NCBI GenBank assembly: GCA_021018815.1
Contig: JAITYX010000058.1
Span: 1,815,001-1,879,000 of the forward strand
Direction of reading: 5' to 3'
DNA length: 64,000 nt
DNA from: Talinum fruticosum
Lineage: Eukaryota; Streptophyta; Magnoliopsida; Caryophyllales; Talinaceae
Position numbers and translations under genes: made by a program. Position 1 is the first letter of the stretch, and every line of letters begins with the position of its first letter. Positions 6,993 to 51,858 of the stretch are shown here, one piece after another. A model generated the notes under the pieces. It did no database searches. It was not told where the DNA came from and saw nothing but the letters and a program-made list of their open reading frames with translations.

Positions 6993-8126
6993 TGTGGCGT
7001 TTGGTTGGATTTAATGCAATAGGAGTGTAATATAATCAATTATGTAATGTAATTTGTTATGCAATGTAATGATATAATAATTACATTATCATGTTTGGTT
7101 ATATAAAAAGTGTAATGTAATCACAATGGTAATGAATTATTTCAATGACAAAAATAATAATTAAATTATTGTAGTAGAGATAAATATTATCTAAAATATA
7201 AATTTCTAAATATAAATTTGAGCTACATATTTAGATTTGAGCTTTTTAAAATATTTTCTATCAAATAATCAAGTTTTATTTCTTTTGTGGCAAATATCAA
7301 TTATATTATTCCAATGGAAATAAATATCGTAATAGAGATAAATGTTATACACATGAAAACATTTTAAATTTGAAATCATATTTGAGATTTTTTTAATCTT
7401 TTGTATCATATTTCTTAATTTTAAATTTTTTGGGGGTAAAAAGATCAACTAGATTATTCTAGTGACGATAAATGTTTGTCCTAGTGAAGACAAATGTTAT
7501 CCAAATAACAAAATTTTAAATTTTAAATTTATATGTGAGCTTTTTTAATCTCTTCTATCATATAATTAAGTTTTGAATTTTTTTCATTGATAAAAAATAC
7601 CAACTGAAATTATTGTATTTATGATAAATATTTATTGAATTAAAGATAAATGTTAAGTAAAAAAATTTTGATCTAAAAATTTTAATGCAAGCTTCTTTTA
7701 TATTCTTAATTGAATAGCTAAATTTTGAATCCAAAATATTGAAATTGAATTTTTCTCTTAATGACCAACCGATTATATCATATATTAAGATAATAGAAGA
7801 AAGAAAATCAAGTTCCTTTTCAAATGAATGAAATTTTTGTTTGCCAAGGAGGAGAGAGAAAAATGATATGGCGAAAGAGAGGGAGAGGGAGAGGGAGAGG
7901 GAGAGGGAGAAAATTATTACAAGTGTATTAAAATTTGATCCCAATGATGGACGTAATTATGATTGTTTAATAAATGTCTAAGTAATTGTAATTGCATAGG
8001 TAGAGGTTAATGTGATTATAATGTAATTTTGATTGCATTACAAAGTTATAACCAAACATGGTAATGTAATGACCATTACCAATTTGATTACATTACCACT
8101 TTGATTACATCTAACCAAACTTGCCC
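6993..8126. mobile_element. Tourist/PIF-Harbinger-like MITE nested in the gypsy LTR
   Basis: The ends form a degenerate terminal inverted repeat: GGCGTTTGGTTGGATTTAAT on the left and, reversed, GGGCAAGTTTGGTTAGATGT on the right. TTA lies just outside each end (6990-6992 and 8127-8129), the PIF/Harbinger target size. Subterminal inverted copies of GTAATGTAAT follow. There is no transposase; the interior is A+T-rich with a (GGGAGA)n patch near 7880-7912. At 1134 bp it is long for a MITE, so it may be an internally deleted element. Confidence 0.7.
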
Positions 8127-8769
8127 TTAGTGAAGATCCTTAACAATGGAAGTTGAAGTTTGAAATGAATGAGATTGAAGAAGATGAAGTTTCCTTTATT
8201 CTCTCTCTGTATCTCTCTCTTATTTGGAGCTGTTGGATTTTACATGAGGAAATGAGCCAAAATTCAACATCACATTTGACTTATGTATCAGATTTGGAGA
8301 GGCTGCAATTATTATTTGGAGTATGGAGTAGATAGGTTGAGAGTGTCAGATTTGAGAAGGGGAGTGGTGTTGCAATGATGATTGGAGCATGGTGGTAGAG
8401 GTGGAGTGCAGCAATAGATAAAGATGGAAGGAGAAGCAATCAGATTTTTTGCCTAAATGTTGATGTTTTAGGATGAAAGGAATATGTTTTGCATGTTTAG
8501 ACATTAGGAAGATATCATGCTTTAAGATTTATTTAATCCAAGCAACTAGCAAACTAAATGAATATTTTCTAAGCTTACTCCTAATATTATTTCCAACTAA
8601 GTTAACCGTTAACTAACAAACTTGTAAATAAATACATATATATATATAAGGTAACTAGCACATTATATGAATTTTACGACCAATCTTTAAAATAAGTTAT
8701 TTAGTGAGTAAGTCACATATACAAATCAAATTCTTTTTTTTTTTCCTTCCTTTTAGTTCGGACGTCACA

Positions 8770-9484
8770 CATAATTAATAGTTAATAACAAATTGAGTGC
8801 CAATTGATTAATATGAATTTTATGAGTGGTATTTTTGACATTTTAGATAATTCAGGGATAATTTAATCTAAGTATTCGGCATGAGGGGGCTGGGGGAGGT
8901 TGAAGAGCTTCTAAATTTTCATGTTGTTCTTTTTTTTCCTTTATATTTTCCTGAGATTCAAAGATGAGGAAAAAGTCAATTCTCTAACTTTTTTATATTA
9001 AATTTTTTTCCAACAAAGCCTTATTTATTTCACCTCCTTGGAGTTTTTTTATTACTAATACATGTCATTTTTATCGGACATTCATTATTTGCTTTTTATT
9101 ATATGCATTTGAATTATGGTATAATAGTTATGTTAAATTTGGGCTCGTGAAACCTTTTTATGATTCTCTAATATTAATGAGGTGTTATCATTTGCATTGG
9201 AAGGCAAACAGCCTTGTATAACAACAATAGGCACGTTCACCCGTTTTCACTCATTTAGCATCCCTTTCACATACGGATGTGGTGGATGGATTCGGGTGGT
9301 GGATGCGGAGGGGGCACCATCCGATCCATTGTCATGCCTGTATTTAATACATAATCCATATCCTTCACACTTCACAGGATCCACCAGTCTATAACCAACA
9401 CCCAAACAAGTTGCAGATTGAATAATGGTTCAGAAAATCCCAAAATCCAAAAAATACAAGTAAACATTTTTTAAAAAAAAGATA
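8770..9484. other. intergenic region, no gene seen
   Basis: AT-rich sequence between the gypsy LTR and the first host gene. The part close to 9485 is presumably the 3' untranslated region of that minus-strand gene. A plus-strand frame at 9182-9394 has no recognisable domain and is not supported. Confidence 0.5.
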
Positions 9485-34516: not shown

Positions 34517-34585
34517 AACCTATTAGCTCAACGGGAGAGCAACATGCTATAGCATGCGGATGTGGGTTCAAATCCCACATAGGTT
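34517..34585 (+). tRNA. tRNA-like cloverleaf 1 (probable pseudo-tRNA)
   Basis: Acceptor AACCTAT pairs perfectly with ATAGGTT; the D arm is GCTC/GAGC; the T arm is GTGGG-TTCAAAT-CCCAC. A-box-like TAGCTCAACGGG and B-box GGTTCAAATCC are present, so RNA polymerase III promotion is conceivable. The anticodon position holds CATGC-TATA-GCATG, not a 5-bp stem with a 7-base loop, so no anticodon can be assigned. Confidence 0.75.
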
Positions 34586-34832
34586 GTATATGTATTCATT
34601 ATGTTGTCCATTTTATAGCATTATATAATTTAAGCATGAACAGAATGAAGCAAGTTCATAGAGATGCACGTGGTTAAAAGAAATCGATGTTCTTTTGGCT
34701 CATATCAAATTCCCTCGCCGTTTATTTATGTCACAATGTTTTGATCCTGATCTAACTTGGTCAAAAGGATTCTTGTCATCTGTTATATCAAGTTGTTGGT
34801 GTTTCTTTGTGTCTTCAAATCCATTTTTCATT

Positions 34833-34904
34833 AGCCTATTAGCTCAAATGGTAAAGCTTTTGTGCAATCGCACAAAAGATGTAGGTTCAATTCCTACATA
34901 GGTT
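34833..34904 (+). tRNA. tRNA-like cloverleaf 2 (probable pseudo-tRNA)
   Basis: Acceptor AGCCTAT/ATAGGTT with one G-U pair; T arm GTAGG-TTCAATT-CCTAC; D arm GCTC/AAGC with one mismatch. The anticodon position is an 8-bp hairpin TTTTGTGC-AATC-GCACAAAA. It lies 247 bp after cloverleaf 1 in the same direction. Confidence 0.75.
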
Positions 34905-35523
34905 GCATTCGAATTTGGTTTATTTTGTGGCCATCTTGTTTTTCAGCTCAATTCACTTTGATTACATAAAAACAAATTTTATTTAGTGGAACTATGGAAG
35001 AAGAGTTTCTCAATCATAAATAGTCAAGTCCCTTCAATCCAAATAAAAATAAAAATAAAAATAATCAAGTCCCATTTAGATATAAATAAAGTAAAAGTAA
35101 ACATATACACTTTATATACAAGTCGAAGCATCGGAAGAAGAAGCATGGCCCCCAAAGATCCACACATTACCAACCACAAACCGGACAAAGCAAAGAAGCA
35201 ATCCGGACCTATCTTAAAATATTCAACGAAAACCTTGAGCTCGTTATGTGGAAACATAGACAACTCGTTTCATATACTTCCTCGGATAATACCACTTTGA
35301 GAGAGAAAAACCAAAAACCGGTAGCAACTAAATCCTCGGAACTACTATTCCTTAGACGTACAAGTTAGCAAAACGCTAAAGCATGGTAAACCATAAACGA
35401 ATGGGATAATTGTGGTACCAGTTTAACTTCTTTGTGTCAAGGGTTTTTTTGACTTGGAATAAATTTAAACAACTTATGCAACTTGAAAGTATAATCGTGG
35501 ACTAAAGAGGTGAACACTAATAA

Positions 35524-35594
35524 AGCTTATGTAGGAATCAAACCTACGCCTTTTGTGCAAATGCACAAACACTCTTCCATTGAGCTAATAGGCT
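35524..35594 (-). tRNA. tRNA-like cloverleaf 3 (probable pseudo-tRNA)
   Basis: Minus strand. Acceptor AGCCTAT/ATAAGCT with one mismatch; T arm GTAGG-TTTGATT-CCTAC; D arm GCTC/GAGT. Central hairpin TTTGTGC-ATTT-GCACAAA. It faces cloverleaves 1 and 2 from the other half of the element. Confidence 0.72.
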
Positions 35595-36477
35595 ATATAG
35601 AAATTATTTGCAAACAGGAACATAACTTACAAACAAATGTGCAAGTTCTCGTGGATTATAATTGAACTCAATACCAACATTCACTAACAAATGTGCAAAT
35701 TCTATAGATTATAATTGAACCTCGTATCCATGAAGAGAACCTTTTCTTTAAGTAACAAGTTCTTTTCATAGTGGAGGGCGAAAAGTCGAGCCTCTGTTCT
35801 TCTCTTGTGAAAAGAAATCTCATTTTGACAACCTTCCTAATAAGTAAGGTATGTCTACTCCATTACCTCTACAACTATGCATTAGTGAAAACCTTAGCTC
35901 CAACTCGTATACAACTACAACAAAAAGGCAACAAAAAGACTAGCACCAATCTCAGCTTTTTTTTGCACTCTAGATAATGAAAATTAGATGTCTTCACTAG
36001 TATGAATATAACTCAAGCAACATAAATGGACTAAGAATTTTATCGATATTGTAATACTGCAGACAACATAACCTTCTTAAAACATATGCGTAAACACTCA
36101 ATAAACCCACCTCTTGATCTTCAACTAGGGTTATCCATGAATTCAATAGATTACATTAACCCAGTTCATCCATGAATTCAATAACATACAACCTAAGTGC
36201 TTCCTTCGAACGTAAGAAAACCAACGAGCTATCACATTAACCCAGCTTCATCCATGAATTCAATAGATTACATAACCGATTAACCACATTCAAAGCAGCA
36301 AAAAACCTAATCTAGAAATCCAAAACAAACCTTGCTTCGTCCATTCATCCCACAAAACATAACAAAACTACAACAACATATCCAAGCCAAATCATAATCT
36401 CTTAATCCAATGGGAAAAAAAAAACCAAAGGGGCGAAAGAAAGCAGACCCAAAAAGAGAGAGAGTAAAAATACCGTA

Positions 36478-36657
36478 GATGGGGGCTTCGAGCTCCAAAA
36501 GATTAGGTCGTCGAAGGAAATTATCATTAGAAGCGGCGCAAAGTTGCCGGATCTCCGACTCGAAAAGTCGAACTCGCCTCGCACTTCTAAACCTAGGGTT
36601 TCGAAAATCCAATAACTTGCTTATGATGTCCGGCGGGTCCAGGAGAGCGAGATACAA
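36478..36657 (-). pseudogene. captured fragment of a type-1 Ser/Thr protein phosphatase gene (N-terminal exon)
   Basis: The minus-strand frame reads [16 protein letters not shown], then [20 protein letters not shown] and [14 protein letters not shown]. This matches the start of plant PP1 catalytic subunits (LLD-II-RLL-FRN, then [30 protein letters not shown]) over about 56 residues. Immediately after EAPI the sequence turns into GGTATTTTTACTC and T-rich sequence, as at an exon-intron border, so genomic DNA rather than cDNA was copied. The catalytic metal-binding motifs (GDIHG, GDYVDRG, RGNHE) lie in later exons and are absent. The solo LTR begins 33 bp upstream. Located in the arm of a TIR element, it is best read as a transduplicated gene fragment. 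Confidence 0.78.
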
Positions 36658-36689
36658 GAGAGGGTATGGGAAAGTGATTGGCCGGTGGT

Positions 36690-39179
36690 TGTAACGCCCC
36701 AGTTACCATTACTTAATAATCCCCTAACCCGAGAATATTAGGTAAGGTTGCGGCGGAAGTTACCGATCGAAGGCGTTACGCCGCCCTAACAAAAGGACAA
36801 GGCCGAATTAAAATACCATAATAAACGAGTGTCTAGAGGTCATGCCTCAGCCTGCGTCTCGTGGTGTCATCCCGACTACTTAAGTAACCAATCCCAAGCA
36901 CGGTTCGCTACCTATTTACAAACGTTAGTGACCATTACAACAGATCGCGATAGGAAATGTGCAACACTTAATTACAACCCGAAGTCAAACCCAAAATTAG
37001 CGTGGACGAGAATCACTGTGAGCACCTAATCCCGCACGGGACGGTGATAATGGAATATCCAGCTAAGTCCTGCTCCCGTCAGGCTTCTTATGCAATGGGT
37101 CGTTCATCGATGCTTTTCCTAAAAACAAAACATCAAAATAATTCAAAGAATGAGTCGAAACTCGGTACGAACATTCTCGCACGAGTTAAATAAATTTGAA
37201 ACACATTGATTGAGCGCGCGCATTTCAATTCATTTTAGTTTGAAATCGGGGGAAAGAATATAAGTAAAACTTCCTTGCCGGTTATTATCTCGAAAGTGGA
37301 ACCCCTTGATAATTGATACGATCTTAGTAAGGTGCACACCTCCCGGCCGACCGAGAACCCGAGTTGAAGCCGCGCGGGTTGGGCATAAGCCACGATTATT
37401 GATAATTGATGGGCATAAGCCCCGATAATTGATAATTGGGCGGGGGCCACTTGATTAGGTGGTAAAACTTGATTTGCAAATGGTTCATTATTAATTATAT
37501 ATATGAGAAATGTTGAGATTTGATGAAATATGTGAGTTTTTGAAAGGTACAGGTAATGAACGTACTCGAACCGAGGATGTTTGCTTTCTCCCCTTTTTAT
37601 GAAAATTTAAGTTACTAGCTTTCCAAGCAACCGAAGTGGCCTCGGTTACGTTTCAAATAGATTTCCCTCGTTAATAAGGTTTTTTATTTTTTTGAGTTTT
37701 AATACTTGAATTCGTATAATCGTTGGTAATTTGATTTATTTTCTTTATTTGTTATGTAATCGATTAAGCTAAGATTTTTGTTACTCAACTCCCTTGCACT
37801 AATTCTGTTTAGATCATTATTGAGCACGTACTCGATAAAGTAGTCGACTAGATCCAGCAATGATATTCCCACGGTGTAATGCGTTACGGACTCAAATCAA
37901 GAGAATGAAAACCCACATATACATGTATATATATGTACTTATGCATGTGTACAAGTACCTAAACACTTCGTAGTTAATGTTGTTATTATTATCATTGTCA
38001 TTGTTATTGTTATTATTAGATGCAACTGATTTGATTAACTTGCCAAGCCCAACTTATCTTTCGATCTTTATTCCTAACGTAATTTCTTTATTTCTCACTT
38101 TATCGAGTTCTAACCTAGAACTAGGTGATTACCCAATCTACCAATGCCTTTCCACGGGAGGCTTCACAATTAACCAAATTGCTCGAAATTCATACATATA
38201 CTAACTTAAGGTCCTGGGCATTACTTTCACCACAAAATTCACATTCGCAATCACGATTAAGCATGCTCAATATTTGAACTATTTTCTCAACCTCTGCAAT
38301 TACGCATTAGCCAGTTCAACTTATGCATATACTCCGTCCTACGTTTGCTCAATATAGTCATTCCCCAAAATCTCAAAATCCATCCAGCTTACTCAATTAC
38401 ATAACCAAACATCCCTAATTTCGTTCTCTACATTATAATTCCCTAAAAGAATTTTACCTCTATACACAATCAATCCATCCACTTGCCATAACTCGAGTCA
38501 TTCATACCAGTTTGAATATTCTCAAATCAATCCTTAATTTCACTCAACAACACAATTCTAAATCATACACTTCAATTTATAGTTACAATTGCCTAAATAA
38601 ATCGAAACTTGATAATTTAGGGTTTAGCGTGTTTACCTTCAGATTTGGAGAGAAGAAGTTGAGGAGGACGAGCGGAGGGCGGCGGTGGACGACGCTGCAC
38701 CGGCAACCACCCGGCGAGGCGGCGACAAGCTCGGCGGCGCTGCGGCTGGGGTTGGCTGCCAAGCGAGCCGCGACAGAGGAGTCCCGCAGCGCCTAGCGGG
38801 AGGAAGGGAGAGGCAGCGAGAGCACGAGAGAGGGAGGAAGCGAGAGAGGGGAGACGAGAGGCGGCCGGCGCTGGTCTCCCGCCGGCGTCGGCTGGCGCCG
38901 GTGGCGGAGAAGGTGCCCACGGGGAAGAAGAAGCAGGGGAGGACGGGAGGAGCGGGGAAGCGAGGGGAGGACGGGAGGAGGGAAGGCGGTGAGGCAATTG
39001 AATTGAACTTGCCCGCTTATTTTGGTTTTAACCGCCTCACTATTTTTTTTTCTACTTAATTCCGGATAAATCAGTATCTGGATTTTTCTTAAAAAATCCG
39101 ATTAATTTATTTCATTTTCATTTTTTTCTTTTCTACATTCATTTTTATGTATTTATTTAGTTACTTATTTATTTATTTG

Positions 39180-39265
<86 letters not shown>

Positions 39266-39478
39266 TTTTTAATTTTATTTTAATAATGCTTGTTAACAAA
39301 TTATAACTTTATTATGAGATTTTTATTAGGCCACTTCGTTGCCTTAGCCGCTTAACATGTACATAAAAGTAATTTAAATGTGAAATATTGAATCGAAGTG
39401 CACGCGCTCAATCATATGAATCTTGTAATTAATGAGTTAATAAAATAAACAATTTGGTTTAGGGTCGGGTTGTTACGA
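36690..39478 (-). mobile_element. solo LTR of a Ty3/gypsy element with 5-bp target duplication
   Basis: The insertion begins TGTAACGCCCC at 36690 and ends TTGTTACGA at 39478. GTGGT stands directly outside each end (36685-36689 and 39479-39483). It has no internal region, primer site or polypurine tract, so it is a solo LTR of 2789 bp left by LTR-LTR recombination. The minus-strand start should be TG but reads TC, one substitution. A (TTA)n tract and a G+C-rich patch (38640-38990) lie inside; large overlapping frames in that patch are compositional artefacts. Confidence 0.85.
39181..39264. repeat. (TTA)n microsatellite, 28 units
   Basis: An uninterrupted TTA/ATT repeat of 84 bp within the solo LTR. 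Confidence 0.97.
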
Positions 39479-39483
39479 GTGGT

Positions 39484-39679
39484 GGAGGGGACAAGGGGCC
39501 GGACGGATGCTCGCGCGGGTCAGGTCAGGCTGCGAGGCCGGCGTCCGGGCAGCGGTGCGCTAGGGCTGAATCCATGGCCAAAGTGTACTATCGACCACAA
39601 ACGAGAGAAGGTCTTGGAGAACAACCGACCAGCGGCGGGAGAAGGCCGACAGGAGAACGCCGGCGTGAGGTAGAGCTCC

Positions 39680-39714
<35 letters not shown>

Positions 39715-39916
39715 AGGAGAAAGGAAGCGTAGAAGGTTTCGAGTAGTAGAAATTGGGGGAGGGGACTCGAGACCCCTTCCAAGCCTTTTGTTTTTCTTTT
39801 TTTAAATTAAAAAATTCTCTTTTAATCCCGGACGTTGAATGAAAATTGAGCAGCTGAGATCTGAAGTGCTCACCTAAATGGTGGGCACACCTAAGGGAAG
39901 GCTCACTTGAACCCTC

Positions 39917-39918
<2 letters not shown>
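39484..39918. repeat. right arm and terminal inverted repeat of TIR element 1
   Basis: After the solo LTR comes a G+C-rich then (GA)n arm (39683-39715). The terminal region carries AGGTGAGCACTTC...CTCAGC and AGGTTCAAGTGAGCC-type phrases in inverted orientation, matching both ends of element 2. The terminal GGCTCACTTGAACCCTCCC abuts the (AT)n tract. Confidence 0.7.

Positions 39919-39996
<78 letters not shown>
39919..39996. repeat. (AT)n tract shared by the ends of two TIR elements
   Basis: A 78-bp AT dinucleotide run lies exactly between the terminal repeat of element 1 and that of element 2. The other end of element 2 (45447-45467) also abuts (AT)n. This fits insertion into an AT microsatellite or (AT)n target duplications. 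Confidence 0.95.
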
Positions 39997-39998
<2 letters not shown>

Positions 39999-40090
39999 GA
40001 GGGTTCAAGTGAGCCCTAACTTTAGGTGAGCACTTTTAATCTCAACTATTGAACTTTCAATCAAAGGTTGAGATTAAAAAGGAAAATTAT
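39997..40090. repeat. left terminal inverted repeat of element 2
   Basis: It pairs with 45345-45446 as described for the element; about 75-80% of positions agree by eye. Confidence 0.8.
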
Positions 40091-40640
40091 AATTTAAAAA
40101 AAAGAAAAATACATTTTTTCACTCGGGAGAGGGAGAAGGAAGGTCTCGATGCCTTTACCGAGTCCTCATTCTCACATTTTTCCTCCTCTCTCTCTCCCCT
40201 CTCTTGTCGGAGCTCTCCCCGACGCCGGCATCTACCTTCCGGCCTCCTCCCACCGCCGACCTTTGTTCTCGGGCCCTCTCTCGTCCGTCCCTCTTCTAGT
40301 GCTCGCTAGTTTGTGCTCGCTCGTTCGTCCTCTTTACTTGGTGGCTGCCCTCTCGAACTCACCGGTTGCCTAGACCCGCTGGCCTCACCAGCCCATCCTC
40401 GGCCACCCTCCGTCTCCGCCTTGTCTATCTCTCTATCCTCCCTCATTGAGGAGCACGACCCCGCCGGAAATCACAAGTAAGAGTTTGAATTAAATCTAGG
40501 TTTGCAATTCCTCTGTCTCTCGATCCCTTCTTTGTTTCTCTTTCTCTTGATCCCCCTCTCTCTTTATCTCTAACCACAACCACTTGTCTCCCCCTCTGCG
40601 GCCTACCGCCACCGGAAATAGACAATAGAATCGAGCAACG
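40091..40640. other. CT-rich left arm of element 2, no gene
   Basis: Pyrimidine-rich sequence resembling a plant gene leader, with a mirror-image GA-rich arm at 44890-45340. Open frames here are compositional. Confidence 0.6.
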
Positions 40641-40974
40641 CCGGAGATGTTTTTCTAGGTACATTTTCTTGCTCATCTTGTTTCTGTTTTGTCTTAATTT
40701 TGTGGATTAAAATGCCTTTAATTATTTTTTACATATTGACATTTGAAACTGGTGATTGATTTGCTCATCTTGTGGATTTTGGATTTTGTGGATTATGAAA
40801 CTTGTGATGAATTTTGTGGATTTCAAACTGGTGATGAATTGTGTCAATTTGAATATTTTGGACAATATTATATGTAAGGACGGCCTGTTGCCATTGAGAC
40901 GTGGGGGCATAAACAAGTAAATTGGAAGTTATTCGGAGCGGATTGCGTATTCTGTTTTTGAGTTTGTTTCTTTT

Positions 40975-41130
40975 TCATTTGCAAATAGAAGTTGTAATAA
41001 GGCTACCCATGTGCTAGCCAAGCATGCTTTAGTTAAGAGGAGTAGTAGAACTTGGTCCAGGAATTGCCCCGAGATCTTGCTATCTCGTGCTGACAAACTT
41101 AATTTATTGCTTGAATGTCATGGTGTATGA
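40975..41130 (+). pseudogene. RNase H-like (RVT_3) C-terminal fragment inside element 2
   Basis: An open stretch reads FANRSCNKATHVLAKHALVK and then RNCPEILLSRADKLNLLLEC before a stop. NKATHVLAKHAL is the signature of the C-terminal helix of plant RVT_3 RNase H-like proteins (usual form NxVAHxLAKxAL), found in non-LTR elements and related host proteins. Only the tail is present, and the catalytic acidic residues are absent apart from this end. Probably captured by the TIR element. Confidence 0.6.
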
Positions 41131-41225
41131 CTTTAGTTGACTCTAATCGTGAATGTAGATTTTGGGCACTTGAATTGAGTATTGAACTTGATGTGGTTTC
41201 TCAGGTGTATTGGTGATTTTTGTAT

Positions 41226-41297
41226 AGCCTATTAGCTCAATGGAAGAGCATTTGTGTGAAATGCACAAAAGGTGTAGGTTCAATTCCTACATAGGCT
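41226..41297 (+). tRNA. tRNA-like cloverleaf 4 (probable pseudo-tRNA)
   Basis: Acceptor AGCCTAT/ATAGGCT pairs at all seven positions; D arm GCTC/GAGC; T arm GTAGG-TTCAATT-CCTAC, all perfect. Central hairpin TTTGTG-TGAAATG-CACAAA, 6 bp with a 7-base loop. Of the six copies it is closest to a canonical tRNA, but the base before the central triplet is G rather than T. Confidence 0.78.
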
Positions 41298-41985
41298 TTG
41301 TTTGTGCTCTTCTCTTAATTGTACATCCCTCATTTGAGTTCACTCCAGCTGTTTTGTTTATGTTCTTCTCTTAATTGTGCAAAATGCTTGAGCGGCTAAA
41401 GATGTGCATAAAACACCCTATCCGAGTGGAAAGTCTGTTGCCTTTCTAGGAATGTTTCCCCATATTGGAGAAGCTTTATAAAAAACTTGCCAACATCAGT
41501 AACTATCACAAAATTGCCAAATTCTAGCCTTGAAGGCATGTATATAAAAACAAAAACACAGATTTAACCAAAATGACAAGGGGAAAAAGAAAAATCTATT
41601 TACAACCATTTCCCAGAAAGCAACATCAAGTTTGAAGTTCCGTATTAAACAAAGGAGAGCCTCTTTGTCCCTCCGAGTACCTAATTCAACAGCATATTGT
41701 ACCTTGAATCAACAATGCTTTCCAAACAATGCTTCAGACATGCTTCTCGATAATTGTTATTGTTGCCTTGGATCGAATAGTAGCGTATCTTGAAAGTGTT
41801 TCAACATCAAATGCCATCACATAGCTTCTTAGACTGGAGGGTTTTATCACGTGACTAATTGTGGTCGTGATGTCATCAATCTTGCCTTGCTCAATAGTTT
41901 CTTTTTCCCTCTATTGCATCTGCTCGGGAAGGATCTTCATCGCCTATTCTAGATGAAATCTCCGGTCCACGCGTTTAAGGAAGTA

Positions 41986-43360
41986 ACCATACTCAATATG
42001 TTGAAATTGGAAATCAATATGCAAAAATGTCTCAAAAATACAAAATTCTACTAAACATTAGAAACTCAATATGCTGAAATTGGAACTCTTGCTTTGACTA
42101 CTCTTTCCTCCATGGTATAACCTTCCTAACTTCATTTTAGGCGTGTCTATAATCTTGACTCGCTCAAAAATAAACTTCCTTCAACTTTTACGCATATGTC
42201 TTACTAGCAATCGCACTTGTTTTTGCTTAGACTGTATTTGCTAAGAACCGCACTTTTCGGTGAACTGGAGGGCATATCCATCAAAATATGTGTAAAATAT
42301 AACTAAAAACTATCTCAAATATTACATACCAATAAATGCAAAAAATATCTCAAAAATAAAAAATTGTGCTAAAAATTACGAACTCAATATGTTGAAATTG
42401 GAACTCTTGCTTTGACTACTCTTTTCTTCATGGTACAACCTTTCTAACTTCATTTTAGGTGTGTCCATAGCCCTGGCTGCCCCAAAATGAACTTCCTTCA
42501 ACTTTTACGCACATGTCTTTCTAGCAATCGCTAATTCTCACGCTCACTCTTATTGGTGATGAATTCTAGACACTGCTTGTTGATGAGGCGGAATGATTGC
42601 TAATTCTCGGTGTAAGTTGGTCAATGTTTTAGTTATCTCCGAAAATAATATCGGGAGATGTGAAGCTATTTATGTTCAACTAGGGTCATCTAATAAATCA
42701 GATAGACTATGTGGGAATTGAAACCCACACCTTACGTGCTTTATTACACGTAGCTCTACCAATTGAGCTAATAGACTATTAGTCATTGTGAAAACTATAC
42801 CATCTTTATTTAGGAAAATTACATTCTTATGGAAAAATTGAAATACATTAACAATAAAAGAAAAGAGTAACAATCAAAGGAATTTTCGCTCTTACACAAC
42901 TCCAATAAGGGTTTGAATTGACAAAAGATCACTCTTTCAGCAAGTAACTCAATAGCTTCCCGAGTTTTAGCTCGCATTTAACATCTAGAAAGCTAGGACA
43001 TAAAATGGCTTTTGTTCAGTCAATTGGAGGGCATATCCATCAAAAGATGTGTAAAATATAACTAAAAACTACTTCAAATATTACATACCAATAAATGCAA
43101 AAATGTCTCAAAAATAAAAAATTCTACTGAAAATTAGGAACTCATTATGCTAAAATTGGAACTCTTGCTTTTACTACTCTTTCCTATATGGTATAACCTT
43201 CTAACTTCATTTTTAGGCATGTCCATAGCCCCGGCTGCTAAAAAAAAAAACTTCGTTCAACTTTTACGTGCATGTCTTGCTAGCAACGACACTTGTTCTA
43301 TCCTAGATTGAACTTGCTAGCAATTGCACTTGTTCAATTAACTTTTATGCATGTTGCTAG
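41986..43360. repeat. three direct repeats of about 300 bp in element 2
   Basis: Units near 42000-42235, 42262-42540 and 43018-43350 share AATTGGAACTCTTGCTT, TAACTTCATTTTAGG and CTTCAACTTTTACGC phrases. The second and third also share GGAGGGCATATCCATCAAAA. The third is followed by cloverleaf 6, and cloverleaf 5 lies between the second and third, so repeat plus cloverleaf may have duplicated as one block. Confidence 0.8.
42704..42777 (-). tRNA. tRNA-like cloverleaf 5 (probable pseudo-tRNA)
   Basis: Minus strand. Acceptor AGTCTAT/ATAGTCT with one mismatch; D arm GCTC/GAGC; T arm GTGGG/CCCAC with an 8-base loop. The central hairpin TACGTG...CACGTA keeps pairing while its sequence differs from the other copies. 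Confidence 0.7.
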
Positions 43361-43370
43361 TTTTGTTTTC

Positions 43371-43441
43371 AGCCCATGTGGGATTTGAACCCACATCTTT
43401 GTGTAATAACACAAATGCTCTACCAATTGAGCTAATAGGCG
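43371..43441 (-). tRNA. tRNA-like cloverleaf 6 (probable pseudo-tRNA)
   Basis: Minus strand. Acceptor CGCCTAT/ATGGGCT with one G-U and one end mismatch; D arm GCTC/GAGC around AATTGGTA, the most tRNA-like D loop of the set; T arm GTGGG-TTCAAAT-CCCAC. Central hairpin TTTGTG-TTATTA-CACAAA. Confidence 0.75.
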
Positions 43442-44889: not shown

Positions 44890-45446
44890 AGCAACGAGAG
44901 TGAGAGAGAGAGAACGGGATCAGCGGTGGTAGGTGACTCGGGGGCGGTGGTTGTGCGAGATCAACGAGGGAGAGCGACGAGAGTGAGCGGCCTCGGCGGT
45001 GGCGAGTGACTCGGCCGGATCGACGATAGTGAGACACGAGAGGAAGGGATGGGTAGAGAGAGAACAAGCTCGGTGGTGGCAGTCGACTTTGACGGAGGTT
45101 AACGAGGGACAAGGACCGAGAGAGAGAGAGAAGCAGCAGCGAGTGGAACGCCGATGGTGGGAGGAAGTCGGCAGGTGGACGGTGGCGGTGGGCAACGGGA
45201 GGCGACGAGAGAGAGAGCGAGAGCTAGAGAGAGAGAGAGAGAGCTTGGGAGGGCTGGAAAGAGGATGGAAAATGACGAGGTCTTCCAGTCCTCCCCTCTC
45301 CCGAAAAAAAACAATTTTTCTTTTTAAAAAATCAAAATTTCCTCTTTTAATCTCAGCCATTGAATCAAAATTCAATGGTTGAGATTGAAAGTGCTTACTT
45401 AAAGTTGGGGCTCACCTAGAGGGGAGGGCTCACTTGAACCCTCCCC
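44890..45446. repeat. GA-rich right arm and terminal inverted repeat of element 2
   Basis: The purine-rich arm mirrors the CT-rich left arm. The terminal ~100 bp pairs with 39997-40090 and ends GGCTCACTTGAACCCTCCCC next to (AT)n. Long frames on both strands here (for example 44999-45382) are compositional. Confidence 0.75.
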
Positions 45447-49608: not shown

Positions 49609-49756
49609 TACTACCAAGGAGACCAAGCTCTCGGGTAAGAGATCGGGTAACACCTACACTATTCCTATTTTTGACCCAAGTTAGAATTTATCTTGCTTAA
49701 AAGCATCTCTACATCATGATTCATGGACATGGCATCGTAGATTAGGTCATATTAGC

Positions 49757-50600
49757 ATGCATACTATTAAGAAGCTTGCTTCTCATGGTTTAGTTAGAGG
49801 ATTGCCTAACTGTGCGTTCAAGAAAGATAAAATCGTGAAGCATGCACAAAAGGGAAACAGGTCAAATTATCTTTCAAACCTCCGAAAATTGTTTCCATAT
49901 CTACGAGTGCTTGACTTGTTGCATATGGATTTATGTGGTGCAATCCCTATCAAGAGTCTCGGAGGTAAATCATATGTGCTTGTGATTATTGATGGCTACT
50001 CACGATTTACCTGGGTTTGTTTTCTTAAGCACAAAAATAAAGCATTCAAAGAGTTCAGCAAGCTTAGTAGGAAAATCCAAGTTGAGTCTCGGACTCGAGA
50101 TCCGAAGAATTCGAACCGACCATGGAAGGGAGTTCGACTACTCGGAATTTGCGAGTTTTGTGATAAGAATGACATCTCGCACAACTTTTCAGCACCAAGA
50201 ACTCCTCAATAAAATGGAGTACTTGGAGAGAAAGAACCGGACACTTGAAGAAATAGGAAGGACAATGATGATTGAACATGATCTACCCTACTATTTACGG
50301 GCTGAGGTAGTCAACACGAGCAAACCACACATTAAACGAGATGCCTCATTAGACCCATCCTAAAGAAAACTCCATATGAGCTCTACAAAGGGAAGAAACC
50401 CAACATTTCATACTTCAAACCCTTTAGGTGTAAGTGTTTTGTTCACAACAATGGTAATGATCACTTGACCAAGTTTGATGCTCGGTCGGATGAAGGTATT
50501 TTTCTTGGTTATTGATCTCATAGCAAAGCATATCGTATTTTCAATAAAAGAACTAACAAAGTGGAAGAAAGCATCCACGTTGTTTTTGATGAGATTGAAC
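49757..50600 (+). pseudogene. copia integrase remnant
   Basis: 49757-50212 carries the zinc-binding region (RLGHISMHTIKKLASHGLV; the CC pair is lost) and the first catalytic Asp block LLHMDLCGAIPIKSLGGKSY with VLVIIDGYSRFTWV. A frameshift near 50095 moves to the frame 49989-50363 with IRTDHGREFDYSEFASF (second Asp and the region toward the catalytic Glu). The C-terminal KPFRCKCFVHNNGN / FDARSDEGIFLGY passage follows at about 50415-50515, with stops. Confidence 0.88.
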
Positions 50601-51150
50601 AGGAAAAACCGAGTGAGTGAACATTCTCGGACACTGAAGCTCAGCAGAGATGATGATCTTGGTGAAAATGAGCTCATCAAGAATCAAATCAAAATCACTC
50701 GGAACGAAGTGACTCGGAATAACTCGACTCGGAATGAGATAACTCGAGAGACAACTCGGAATGTTGAAGGTCAATCAGCTGAACCAGCTCACTTAGAACA
50801 GACTTCGAAGATCAACCAATTCAACCTACGGATCTGGTGAACCGAGAGAATAGGTAGAGCATTCAAGAATGCTTCGAGCCACCCACTAGAAAACATTTTG
50901 TCCGATATCAACGAGTGGGGTAAGAACTCGTTCCTCTCTACAAAATCTATATGTATTCACTGCATTCATTTCATTAACTGAACCTAGAAATGCACTAGAA
51001 GCCCTAAATGAACCTGAATGGGTAGAGGCCATGCAAGAGGAACTCAATCAATTTGAAAGAAACCAAATGCGGACTCGACGAAACGATCTTCCGATCATCC
51101 AGTCATAGGAACCAAGTGGGTTTTCAAGAACAAAGCTGGATAAAGGTGGG

Positions 51151-51858
51151 TTGGTAGTAAGAAATAAGGCTAGAATTGTGGCTCAAGGTTACAATCAAGA
51201 AGAAGGAATCGATTGTGGGGAAACCTTTACACCTATTGCTAGAATTGAAGCTATTAGAATCCTATTGGCATTTGGATATAGCATGAATATCAAATTGTAT
51301 CAAATGGATATTAAATGTGCTTTTCTCAATGGTTTCATTGAAGAGGAAGTCTATGTTGAGCAACCCCTGGATTTGAAAACTCGAGAATTTCCAAATCATG
51401 TTTTTAAATTGCAAAAAGCTCTCTATGGTCTTAAACAAGCTCCCACGACTTGGTATGAAAGATTGAGCAATTTCTTGGTTGAACATGATTTTGAAAGAGG
51501 TAAGATTGACAAGACTCTTTTTATAAAAACCAAGGGAAGAGACTTTCTTATTGCTCGGATATATGTTGATGACATAATCTTTAGAGCTACTGATGAAATT
51601 CTTTATCGAGATTTTTACGAGTTAATGAGACAGGAATTTCAAATGAGTATGATGGGAGAACTCAATTTCTTCCTTGGTCTACAAATCAAGCAAGACAAAG
51701 ATGGGATCTATGTCCATCAATTAAAGTATACCAAGGAGATGCTGAAGAAGTACATGCTTCAAGATGTGAAACATGCCACAACACCTATGAATAGTAGCAT
51801 AAAACTAGACTCGGACGAGAAAGGTAAAGCAATAGATCGAAACTCTATCGAGGTATGA
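51151..51858 (+). pseudogene. copia reverse transcriptase (RVT_2), longest intact domain
   Basis: A 235-codon open stretch covers most of RVT_2: KARIVAQGYNQEEGIDCGET, FTPIARIEAIRILLAF, YQMDIKCAFLNGFIEEEVYV, LQKALYGLKQAPTTWYERLS, the catalytic YVDD and LNFFLGLQIKQDKDGIYVHQ. The two catalytic boxes (QMDIKCAFLNG and YVDD) are preserved. It is linked upstream to EALNEPEWVEAMQEELNQFE (about 51000-51060) across a frameshift, so it is a fragment of a dead polyprotein. Confidence 0.93.

Follow-up and report, generated by a model that had tools for sequence, protein, structure and literature searches.

We describe a family of tRNA-like sequences in the genome of Talinum fruticosum that keep the body of a tRNA, carry a closed hairpin in the place of the anticodon arm and lie antisense behind the transposase genes of FAR1-type MULE transposons. 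The structured component is well supported, and its biochemical role is a proposal. We give an even chance to the reading that these tRNA-likes are a conserved, anticodon-less tRNA-body RNA and a regular part of FAR1-type MULEs, which would act as an RNase P/RNase Z cutting signal in antisense RNA. The family is neither a simple SINE nor a decaying organelle tRNA nor a working tRNA.

Results

Six tRNA-like cloverleaves had been proposed in the initial annotation of the window, i.e., the whole 64-kb stretch of DNA that was analysed, and all were recovered in place: t1 (34517..34586), t2 (34833..34905) and t4 (41226..41298) on the plus strand, and t3 (35523..35594), t5 (42701..42778) and t6 (43370..43441) on the minus strand. 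Five of the six exceeded the gathering score of the Rfam tRNA family RF00005 (48-60 bits; t1 50.6, t2 48.5, t3 48.2, t4 59.5 and t6 48.3 bits), with t5 below threshold. ARAGORN likewise called five, including t5, and missed t3; in four of the five it could read no anticodon, and the other it typed as Phe(AAA). A covariance model built from the six window copies, as suggested at the outset, scored t1 at 80.1, t2 at 90.8, t3 at 87.8 and t5 at 82 bits, also matched t4, and at E 0.01 revealed no seventh copy anywhere in the 64 kb. The T stem does switch between G-C and A-T pairs, and the hairpin (CATGC TATA GCATG in t1) does carry paired changes. That an ordinary anticodon arm is missing holds nearly throughout, the hairpin being closed, but was put slightly too strongly, as a 7-nt loop is one way to draw t4 (ARAGORN: AAA), with G33 and T37. 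t2 contains an internal TTTT and t6 lacks the 1-72 pair. Compared with 200 dinucleotide shuffles, the fold energies of t1 to t6 gave z values of -2.9, -4.3, -2.0, -3.9, -5.3 and -4.2; shuffles as good as the real fold numbered 5/200 for t1, 10/200 for t3 and 0/200 for t2, t4, t5 and t6. The minimum-energy folds of t2 and t3 differ from the full cloverleaf.

The copies had rightly been placed in TIR elements, and the hosts can now be named as FAR1-type MULEs, from the transposase of their full-length relatives. Element 2 has a TIR at both ends (left, 39998..40119, plus strand; right, 45305..45444, minus strand), each adjoining (AT)n and identified by the TIR motif and an inverted repeat (40009-40119/45305-45415, 81%). 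For element 1 the right TIR alone was detected by its motif (39791..39917, minus strand), and the left end was not found. The two elements meet across an (AT)n run at 39919-39996, and element 1 is interrupted by a foreign 2.79-kb insertion (36690..39478, no strand assigned) with GTGGT on both sides. Both are non-coding derivatives carrying convergent copies.

Full-length relatives encode a FAR1/MULE transposase, and the hosts are MULEs inserted at TA microsatellites. A MULE domain and a FAR1 DNA-binding domain occur within one TIR pair in L046 and L049, where PF03101 and PF10551 scored above cut-off between TIRs with the same motif; in L047 the FAR1 and SWIM matches were weak and below cut-off, and the transposase of L048 was found by tblastn only. 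The t6 type of tRNA-like is the one present in L046-L048 and, slightly diverged, in L049. (TA)n lies outside 29 of the 46 TIR-motif matches, most of the others being the reverse motif at the same end, and it also flanks L046-L049, as expected of elements that target TA microsatellites. Because the flanks are (TA)n, any target-site duplication of 8-11 bp would be masked. The two ends of coding members are alike over 361-426 bp at 92-96%, and the same promoter is therefore expected at both. Transposases near tRNA-likes share 64-100% identity with the transposase piece of L046, which has relatives in Spinacia oleracea (up to 68%, 93% of the query), Carnegiea gigantea (up to 77% over shorter stretches) and Lotus and Medicago (51-53%). 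The high-copy MULE L045 was rejected as a host, having neither the TIR motif nor a model match.

Across the 620-Mb genome, the tRNA-like pattern gave 655 matches compared with 4 for the reversed pattern. This pattern itself fixes T8, A14, A15 and T54-C56 and is free of bias from similarity to t4; loci L009-L044, in contrast, are biased to the t4 type because they were picked by such similarity (with its flanks, t4 matched 40 scored places out of 598 genome candidates). RF00005 exceeded its gathering threshold with 39 matches in 14 loci and a further 9, one per locus, in 9 loci. The copies sit on contigs of up to 17.6 Mb alongside MULE and copia sequences. Clustering of 89 of 92 rows, after removal of two antisense matches and one fragment, yielded 16 flank clusters with unrelated flanks and a common part limited to a core of about 75 nt, and the alignment was confined to the core in 1849 of 2372 ordered pairs of copies. 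No body and tail inserted as a unit was common across the flank clusters, nor was an independent insertion unit for the tRNA-like seen among them. A single recent SINE with alignable flanks, which had been named as a possible refutation, is thus not what the 16 clusters represent, and the initial remark that the flanks are unlike holds for most copies, with the exception of t5 and t6, which have neighbouring repeats in common. CCA right after the core was absent from the 57 copies examined. With strict patterns, IMG/VR and the GTDB genomes each gave 0 matches, from which it follows only that this is no common prokaryotic or phage tRNA.

The earlier proposal of structured tRNA-like RNAs under pairing constraint is borne out by this genome-wide family with unrelated flanks, by its tertiary positions and by a covariation check, in which pairing exceeded a tree-aware null. 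Paired cells amount to 94.8% as compared to 84.4 +/- 3.1 in 1000 tree-aware simulations, none of which reached it (49 of 57 copies, without one misaligned copy and identical rows); the mutual information was matched by 4/1000 simulations, and the count of double-change pairs is unremarkable, with 57/1000 reaching it. The pairing result pointed the same way in 88 distinct strings, which were taken from the first 100 places listed of the 655. A closed hairpin in the place of the anticodon arm recurs in 15 of 16 flank groups and its pairing persists through sequence change, with energies about 11 SD below shuffles and half-swaps as good in 1/1000. The hairpin loop is predicted to have 4 nt in 49 of the 88 distinct sequences and 7 nt in one; the family thus does not show the 7-nt anticodon loop with U33 of a functional tRNA, and t4, when drawn with 7 nt, has G33.

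Across the 16 groups with unrelated flanks, the tRNA body is preserved together with its D-loop/T-loop elbow and with G46 and Y48. The expected nucleotide is in the majority in all 16 clusters at A14, A15, G19, G46, Y48, T54, T55 and A58, in 15 at T8 and G18 and in 14 at C56, although the D-loop GG occurs in only 71 of the 88 genome-wide strings. The fold has an intact elbow, as in t-elements. This constrained body and the hairpin closed in 15/16 flank groups give no support to decayed organelle-like tRNAs, the other origin initially considered, which we discarded in view of the constraint on the core. Among nine recent groups, the core evolved more slowly than both flanks in six, at a rate between them in two and faster in one; the expectation that it would be slower in every recent group failed in these three. 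A strand test for G-U over A-C wobbles in 78 of 89 rows, without a decayed cluster and duplicates, gave a non-significant lean (39 vs 26 events, p 0.14; by cells 56 vs 37, p 0.06; reversed in the hairpin, 8 vs 14).

The main regularity, which was absent from the initial annotation, is the convergent order of the copies and their antisense position relative to the transposase gene. Of the 122 transposase genes scored genome-wide, 26 have a known tRNA-like within 6 kb, which in 25 of these 26 is downstream and on the opposite strand. Where contigs were listed exhaustively, 11 of 19 transposase genes have one, always in this arrangement, and the remaining 8 have no pattern match within 6 kb. All four coding members examined whole carry one strong tRNA-like opposite to the transposase, and the flanks of five sampled diverged members look unrelated. 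Each of the 13 TIR-delimited non-coding elements carries convergent copies, plus preceding minus in all; L010, with the order -,+,-, has no TIR motif. In the elements measured, copies lie inward of the nearer TIR by about 0.7-2.8 kb. When the 13 non-coding elements are divided into twelfths, all of them show positive T-A skew in the first three and negative skew in the last three. Part of the skew at the ends is expected anyway because TIRs are inverted repeats; in L021, L022, L023 and L027 the skew switches >200 nt outside the interval between the convergent copies, and coding members show a clear skew only close to their ends. Homology breaks at the 5' end of the tRNA-like. We did not use this break as a sign of RNase P-defined retro-insertion, since recombination at a conserved module explains it equally.

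Discussion

Transcription, cleavage and benefit are predicted here from the observed structure, conservation, position, orientation and host family. In full-length members, the transposase would be transcribed from one TIR, and the tRNA-like, beyond the transposase 3' end and on the other strand, would stand in the path of a transcript from the near-identical opposite end. In this RNA it would fold as a tRNA, akin to a plant mitochondrial t-element, and RNase P (PRORP) and/or RNase Z would cut the fold, so that the antisense transcript would end there. The shortened transcript would no longer pair with the transposase mRNA and would not feed into silencing; non-coding derivatives, including both window elements, retain convergent copies. 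In the available text of one study, AtPRORP1 cleavage is affected by changes at 18, 19 and 56-58 and is efficient on a substrate without anticodon arm; the anticodon arm is also among the parts that matter for model substrates, and the PRORP data come mainly from the organellar enzyme (PMC4975455). More specifically, and only tentatively, as we rate the chance at well under even, a FAR1-MULE lineage may have retained a tRNA devoid of its anticodon for use as an antisense terminator at the RNA level, with host tRNA maturation enzymes cutting the antisense RNA from the second TIR and thereby shielding the transposase mRNA against double-stranded RNA and silencing. Since the anticodon loop is closed, the product of such a terminator would be unable to decode. 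If true, a tRNA would here have been turned into a counter-silencing device by a DNA transposon.

Pol III transcription had been considered possible from the outset, and A-box and B-box sequences are indeed retained in nearly all flank groups. They could recruit TFIIIC, perhaps with Pol III, and form a DNA roadblock or boundary, for which a place between convergent transcription units would also be suitable, or a small Pol III gene. However, the oligo-T expected just downstream of a type 2 gene is rarer than in background (T4 no more than 30 nt from the 3' end in 6/98 copies vs 21% of background windows), a T4 terminator is found in the majority of copies in only 2 of 16 flank clusters, three copies contain an internal T4, and the constraint extends beyond the boxes to hairpin pairing, G46 and Y48; we regard this reading as unlikely. 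It is quite improbable that the excised tRNA-like is itself the product, a stable small RNA acting in trans, e.g., one that lures tRNA enzymes or small-RNA pathways as a decoy. A tRNA body without anticodon, the 655 pattern matches and the CCA tailing and modification described for excised mitochondrial t-elements (PMC11658184) would agree with such an RNA, which leaves the antisense place behind the transposase and the convergent order unexplained.

Within an element, the complementarity between convergent copies is up to about 85% across some 70 nt, and dicing might act on RNA from the inverted repeat that they make up. Such a foldback or silencing structure is very improbable, as the coding members examined have a single strong copy, partners within an element often differ in type, and neither cloverleaf covariation nor tertiary nucleotides would be needed. 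A role at the DNA level, such as a transposase-binding or subterminal site, would account for the retention of tRNA-likes in non-coding derivatives too, but with copies so far inside the nearer TIR and a constraint that tracks RNA tertiary positions we see hardly any chance for it. tRNA-derived SINEs have a tRNA-like head with A and B boxes. The many copies and the tRNA similarity, boxes included, would match a SINE or tRNA pseudogenes spread by hitch-hiking in the transposon, whereas the flank clusters of the Talinum family share neither a body nor a tail, only the core of about 75 nt unites them, and pairing exceeds the tree-aware null. As a sole explanation this is disfavoured by the position rule, i.e., the fixed strand and position relative to the transposase; because of flanks and position we set both the SINE and the pseudogene readings aside as the least probable of all. 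No source tRNA of the family was identified.

tRNA-like processing signals occur in plant mitochondria and in a nuclear lncRNA of vertebrates, and SINEs and TRIMs have tRNA heads; a conserved tRNA that does not decode and is built into a DNA transposon as a fixed, antisense component would represent a new use. It raises the question whether DNA transposons whose two promoters are near-identical keep their antisense RNA under control via host RNase P. Among tRNA calls in such genomes, many of the 'undetermined' or Phe ones may belong to transposons, which annotators should bear in mind. In MALAT1/mascRNA, a nuclear tRNA-like with an altered anticodon arm is processed from a Pol II transcript by RNase P/Z, at a single vertebrate host locus with a triple helix upstream; in the Talinum window and 23 loci, no Rfam family besides tRNA was found above threshold.

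Plant mitochondrial t-elements (cox1, ccmC and others), as far as described in the available text, are likewise non-translational tRNA-likes inside longer transcripts, the ends of which are defined by RNase P/Z cleavage (PMC11658184). However, they adjoin mitochondrial genes and are encoded in the mitochondrial genome, whereas the Talinum copies reside in nuclear-sized contigs (up to 17.6 Mb), in DNA transposons and antisense to the transposase, and a closed hairpin replaces the anticodon loop in nearly all groups. The MuTAnT, SaTar and Micron MULEs resemble the Talinum hosts, on the portions available, in being (TA)n-flanked TIR elements with modular arrays and a MULE transposase in full-length relatives; the word 'tRNA' is absent from the main text of both reports (PMC4486113, PMC5907723). 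Helenus TRIM retrotransposons are also mobile elements carrying a tRNA-like sequence, for which anticodon and isotype model disagree in many families (PMC10886601, available text). There the tRNA-like is located in the LTRs as a Pol III promoter, while in Talinum it is internal to a DNA transposon, antisense to the transposase, and the host, a TIR element, has relatives with a MULE transposase.

Structural constraint on the tRNA-like sequences

The initial annotation had placed six tRNA-like cloverleaves in the window (t1-t6), and their positions were borne out. Five of the six passed the Rfam tRNA threshold, and each folded better than the mean of its own shuffles (z -2.0 to -5.3), t3 being the least clear, with 10 of 200 shuffles as good. 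The minimum-energy folds of t2 and t3 differ from the full cloverleaf, the 1-72 pair is absent in t6, and a covariance model built from t1-t6 and run over the window found zero additional copies. ARAGORN calls most t4-type copies Phe(AAA) and finds no readable anticodon in nearly all other copies. The t4 loop has G33 and T37, which is unlike the anticodon loops of working tRNAs.

The same annotation had proposed, as one of two readings, that base pairing is under constraint. This reading found support in 49 distinct copies, where paired cells reached 94.8% compared with 84.4 +/- 3.1 in 1000 simulations that preserved the number of changes per column and a tree built from the same short sequences; no simulation reached the observed value. 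Double-change cells were matched in 1 and mutual information in 4 of the 1000 simulations, while the count of pairs with a double change was reached in 57. The covariation score of 79 distinct rows from an 89-copy alignment was 0.172 (0.128 shuffled; reached in 0/500) and dropped to at most 0.095 with sliding partners. Both alignments, of the 49 copies and of the 79 rows, had been fitted to the model, which favours pairing. A check independent of any hairpin alignment came from folding the stretch that joins the D stem to the T stem. The hairpin was found in 15 of 16 groups of copies, with summed energies of -89 versus -23 +/- 5.8 for shuffled segments, and half-swaps were as good in 1/1000. 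Among 88 distinct strings, drawn from the first 100 listed of 655 genome places, the energy sum was -426, as compared to -98.5 +/- 11.8 shuffled and -327 +/- 13 half-swapped (200 each). A good hairpin was missing in 14 of the 88, and predicted loops were chiefly of 4 or 6 nt, with one single 7-nt loop. A wobble strand test for G-U over A-C was not significant (39 versus 26 events, p 0.14).

Positions holding the three-dimensional shape of tRNA are preserved across the 16 groups. With D-loop length allowed for in A14 and A15, majority sequences keep A14, A15, G19, A21, G46, Y48, T54, T55 and A58 in all 16 groups, T8 and G18 in 15, and C56 in 14. In the 88 genome-wide strings, for which the search pattern preset T8, A14, A15 and T54-C56, G46 occurs in 79, Y48 in 86 and the D-loop GG in 71. 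The Pol III A and B boxes include neither the hairpin nor G46 or Y48. The D-to-T segment measures about 23 nt in class I tRNA and 21-24 nt in 83 of the 88 strings.

Genome-wide family and host transposons

Searches of the same 620-Mb genome yielded the 40 best-scored places of 598 candidates with a 90-nt query around t4 and the 40 best-scored of 957 with a 75-nt t6-type query, the latter every one at 97% or more. The pattern TATTAGCTCAAN{30,55}GGTTC occurs at 655 places, versus 4 for the reversed pattern. Flank clustering of 89 copies, from 36 fetched loci and the window, gave the 16 groups, seven of which are single copies. Between groups, alignment usually did not extend beyond the roughly 75-nt core (1849 of 2372 ordered pairs, some of them physically overlapping pairs from one locus). 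In nine recent groups, the core evolved more slowly than both flanks in six, at an intermediate rate in two and fastest in one, a result that selection acting solely on active source copies would permit but that lends no support. In t6-type copies (L046-L049, L009, L012, L014, L015, L022, L024, L027 and window t6), the downstream sequence is homologous over hundreds of bases and the upstream sequence exists in at least four unrelated versions, with the junction to coding members 0 or 18 nt upstream of the core; recombination at a conserved module, or something else, could have produced these versions.

The hosts are TIR elements whose ends begin GGGAGGGTTCAAGTGAGCCC and adjoin (TA)n. The 19-base core of this motif has 111 exact places, versus 0 reversed. 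Six exact TIR pairs lie on the stretch C1-C7, for which the listing is exhaustive; five of them enclose one or more listed tRNA-like copies, and the pair at C6:8975997 does not. Some copies reside in other hosts, with a different TIR (L023) or no recognised TIR (e.g., L010, L012, L028). In the window elements we saw no ORF of at least 140 aa save low-complexity ones, and no match to transposase pieces. Longer TIR pairs led to four transposase-coding relatives (L046-L049). L046 and L049 carry FAR1 (PF03101) and MULE (PF10551) domains, both above cut-off, L047 shows weaker matches only (FAR1 and SWIM), and transposase pieces among the four mostly match at 89-100%, with 63-71% in three stretches. 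These domains and matches identify the four as MULEs with a FAR1 domain, which the consulted part of PMC6446971 equates with the Jittery group. They belong to the kind of MULE that inserts into TA microsatellites, known from the consulted sections as MuTAnT (PMC4486113) and SaTar/Micron (PMC5907723). SaTar elements are described as forming modular arrays, and the two window elements similarly abut at a common (AT)n run (39913-40002). Among the freely readable papers listed, titles and abstract openings name no tRNA-like sequence in a MULE, which is no proof of novelty, and PMC4486113, PMC5907723 and PMC6446971 do not use the word 'tRNA' in their main texts. A protein search for relatives of the transposase gave matches of up to 68% in Spinacia oleracea and, over part of the sequence, of up to 77% in Carnegiea gigantea.

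Orientation and proposed function

Copies within an element converge. Plus-strand copies all precede minus-strand copies in 13/13 TIR-delimited non-coding elements and in 12/12 2-kb loci with at least two copies, all selected via t4. Of the neighbours no more than 2 kb apart in the first 100 places of the listing, 21 were +-, 4 ++, 1 -- and 0 -+ (within 5 kb: 21, 5, 3 and 4). L010, which has no TIR motif, is an exception with the order -,+,-. In all 13 elements, the first three twelfths have a positive T-A skew and the last three a negative one, and in nine the switch point is at most 200 nt away from the interval that separates convergent copies. This pattern fits inward transcription from both ends, with a contribution from the TIRs, as these are inverted repeats. 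The four coding members show clear skew near their ends only. In each of them, one end matches the other at 92-96% over 361-426 bp (lengths that include flanking (TA)n in L047 and L048), and the same promoter is therefore expected at both.

Each coding member has one strong tRNA-like copy, located past the final ORF piece of the transposase and on the other strand; it scores 76-92 bits and casts a weak shadow of 15-16 bits in antisense. Genome-wide, 128 matches represented 122 transposase genes (122 of 992 candidates scored), and 26 of the 122 have a known tRNA-like copy within 6 kb, a lower bound since only 171 known places, combined from the t4-query, t6-type-query and pattern listings, were used. 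For 25 of the 26, the copy is on the strand opposite the gene, 1.1-3.0 kb downstream of the end of the matched piece; the remaining one is downstream on the same strand (5.7 kb), and none is upstream. These 25 cases are not 25 independent trials, because copies share descent. On contigs with all pattern matches listed, 11 of 19 genes have a tRNA-like copy, every one downstream and opposite, and eight have none. The rule is valid for transposases 64-100% identical to that of L046; in five diverged cases (L050-L054), the flanks appeared unrelated on visual inspection and the inner tRNA-like copy is 77-90% identical to that of L046.

The tRNA-like sequence does not resemble an ordinary Pol III gene. 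T4 follows the 3' end within 30 nt in 6 of 98 copies, versus 21% of random downstream windows, and in the majority of copies in 2 of 16 groups; three copies contain an internal T4. In Arabidopsis, PRORP1 is organellar and PRORP2/3 are nuclear. According to the consulted part of PMC4975455, cleavage by Arabidopsis PRORP1 is affected by changes at positions 18, 19 and 56-58, and the enzyme efficiently cleaves a substrate without the anticodon arm but not one without the D loop; its model substrates are weakened when the D loop, the variable loop and the anticodon arm are all missing. The retained parts of the tRNA-like sequence are those that PRORP1 needs, and the lost part is dispensable to it. 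This suitability, together with the antisense position, suggests a processing signal that ends an antisense transcript. The wobble strand test, the core rates of the recent groups and the absent 1-72 pair of t6 count against this reading. Antisense transcription of the element would carry the tRNA-like sequence into RNA, cleavage there would end the antisense RNA, and the transposon may benefit. Mitochondrial t-elements are cleaved and CCA-tailed without aminoacylation, as the consulted part of PMC11658184 reports.

A spacing of about 172-178 bp within the inner convergent pair recurs in many non-coding elements that represent different subfamilies (L017, L018, L019, L020, L021, L023, L025, L028, L031, L034); the spacing differs in L036 (225) and L041 (183). 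At L020, a second FAR1-MULE transposase (7964-9336), whose tRNA-like side lies beyond the fetched locus, abuts the non-coding element, its larger pieces being 63-77% identical. Within the window, element 1 contains a 2.79 kb insertion (36690-39478) with GTGGT on each side and ends TGTAACG / TTACGA, and 49685-51858 holds Ty1/copia retrotransposon fragments (gag_pre-integrs, rve, RVT_2).
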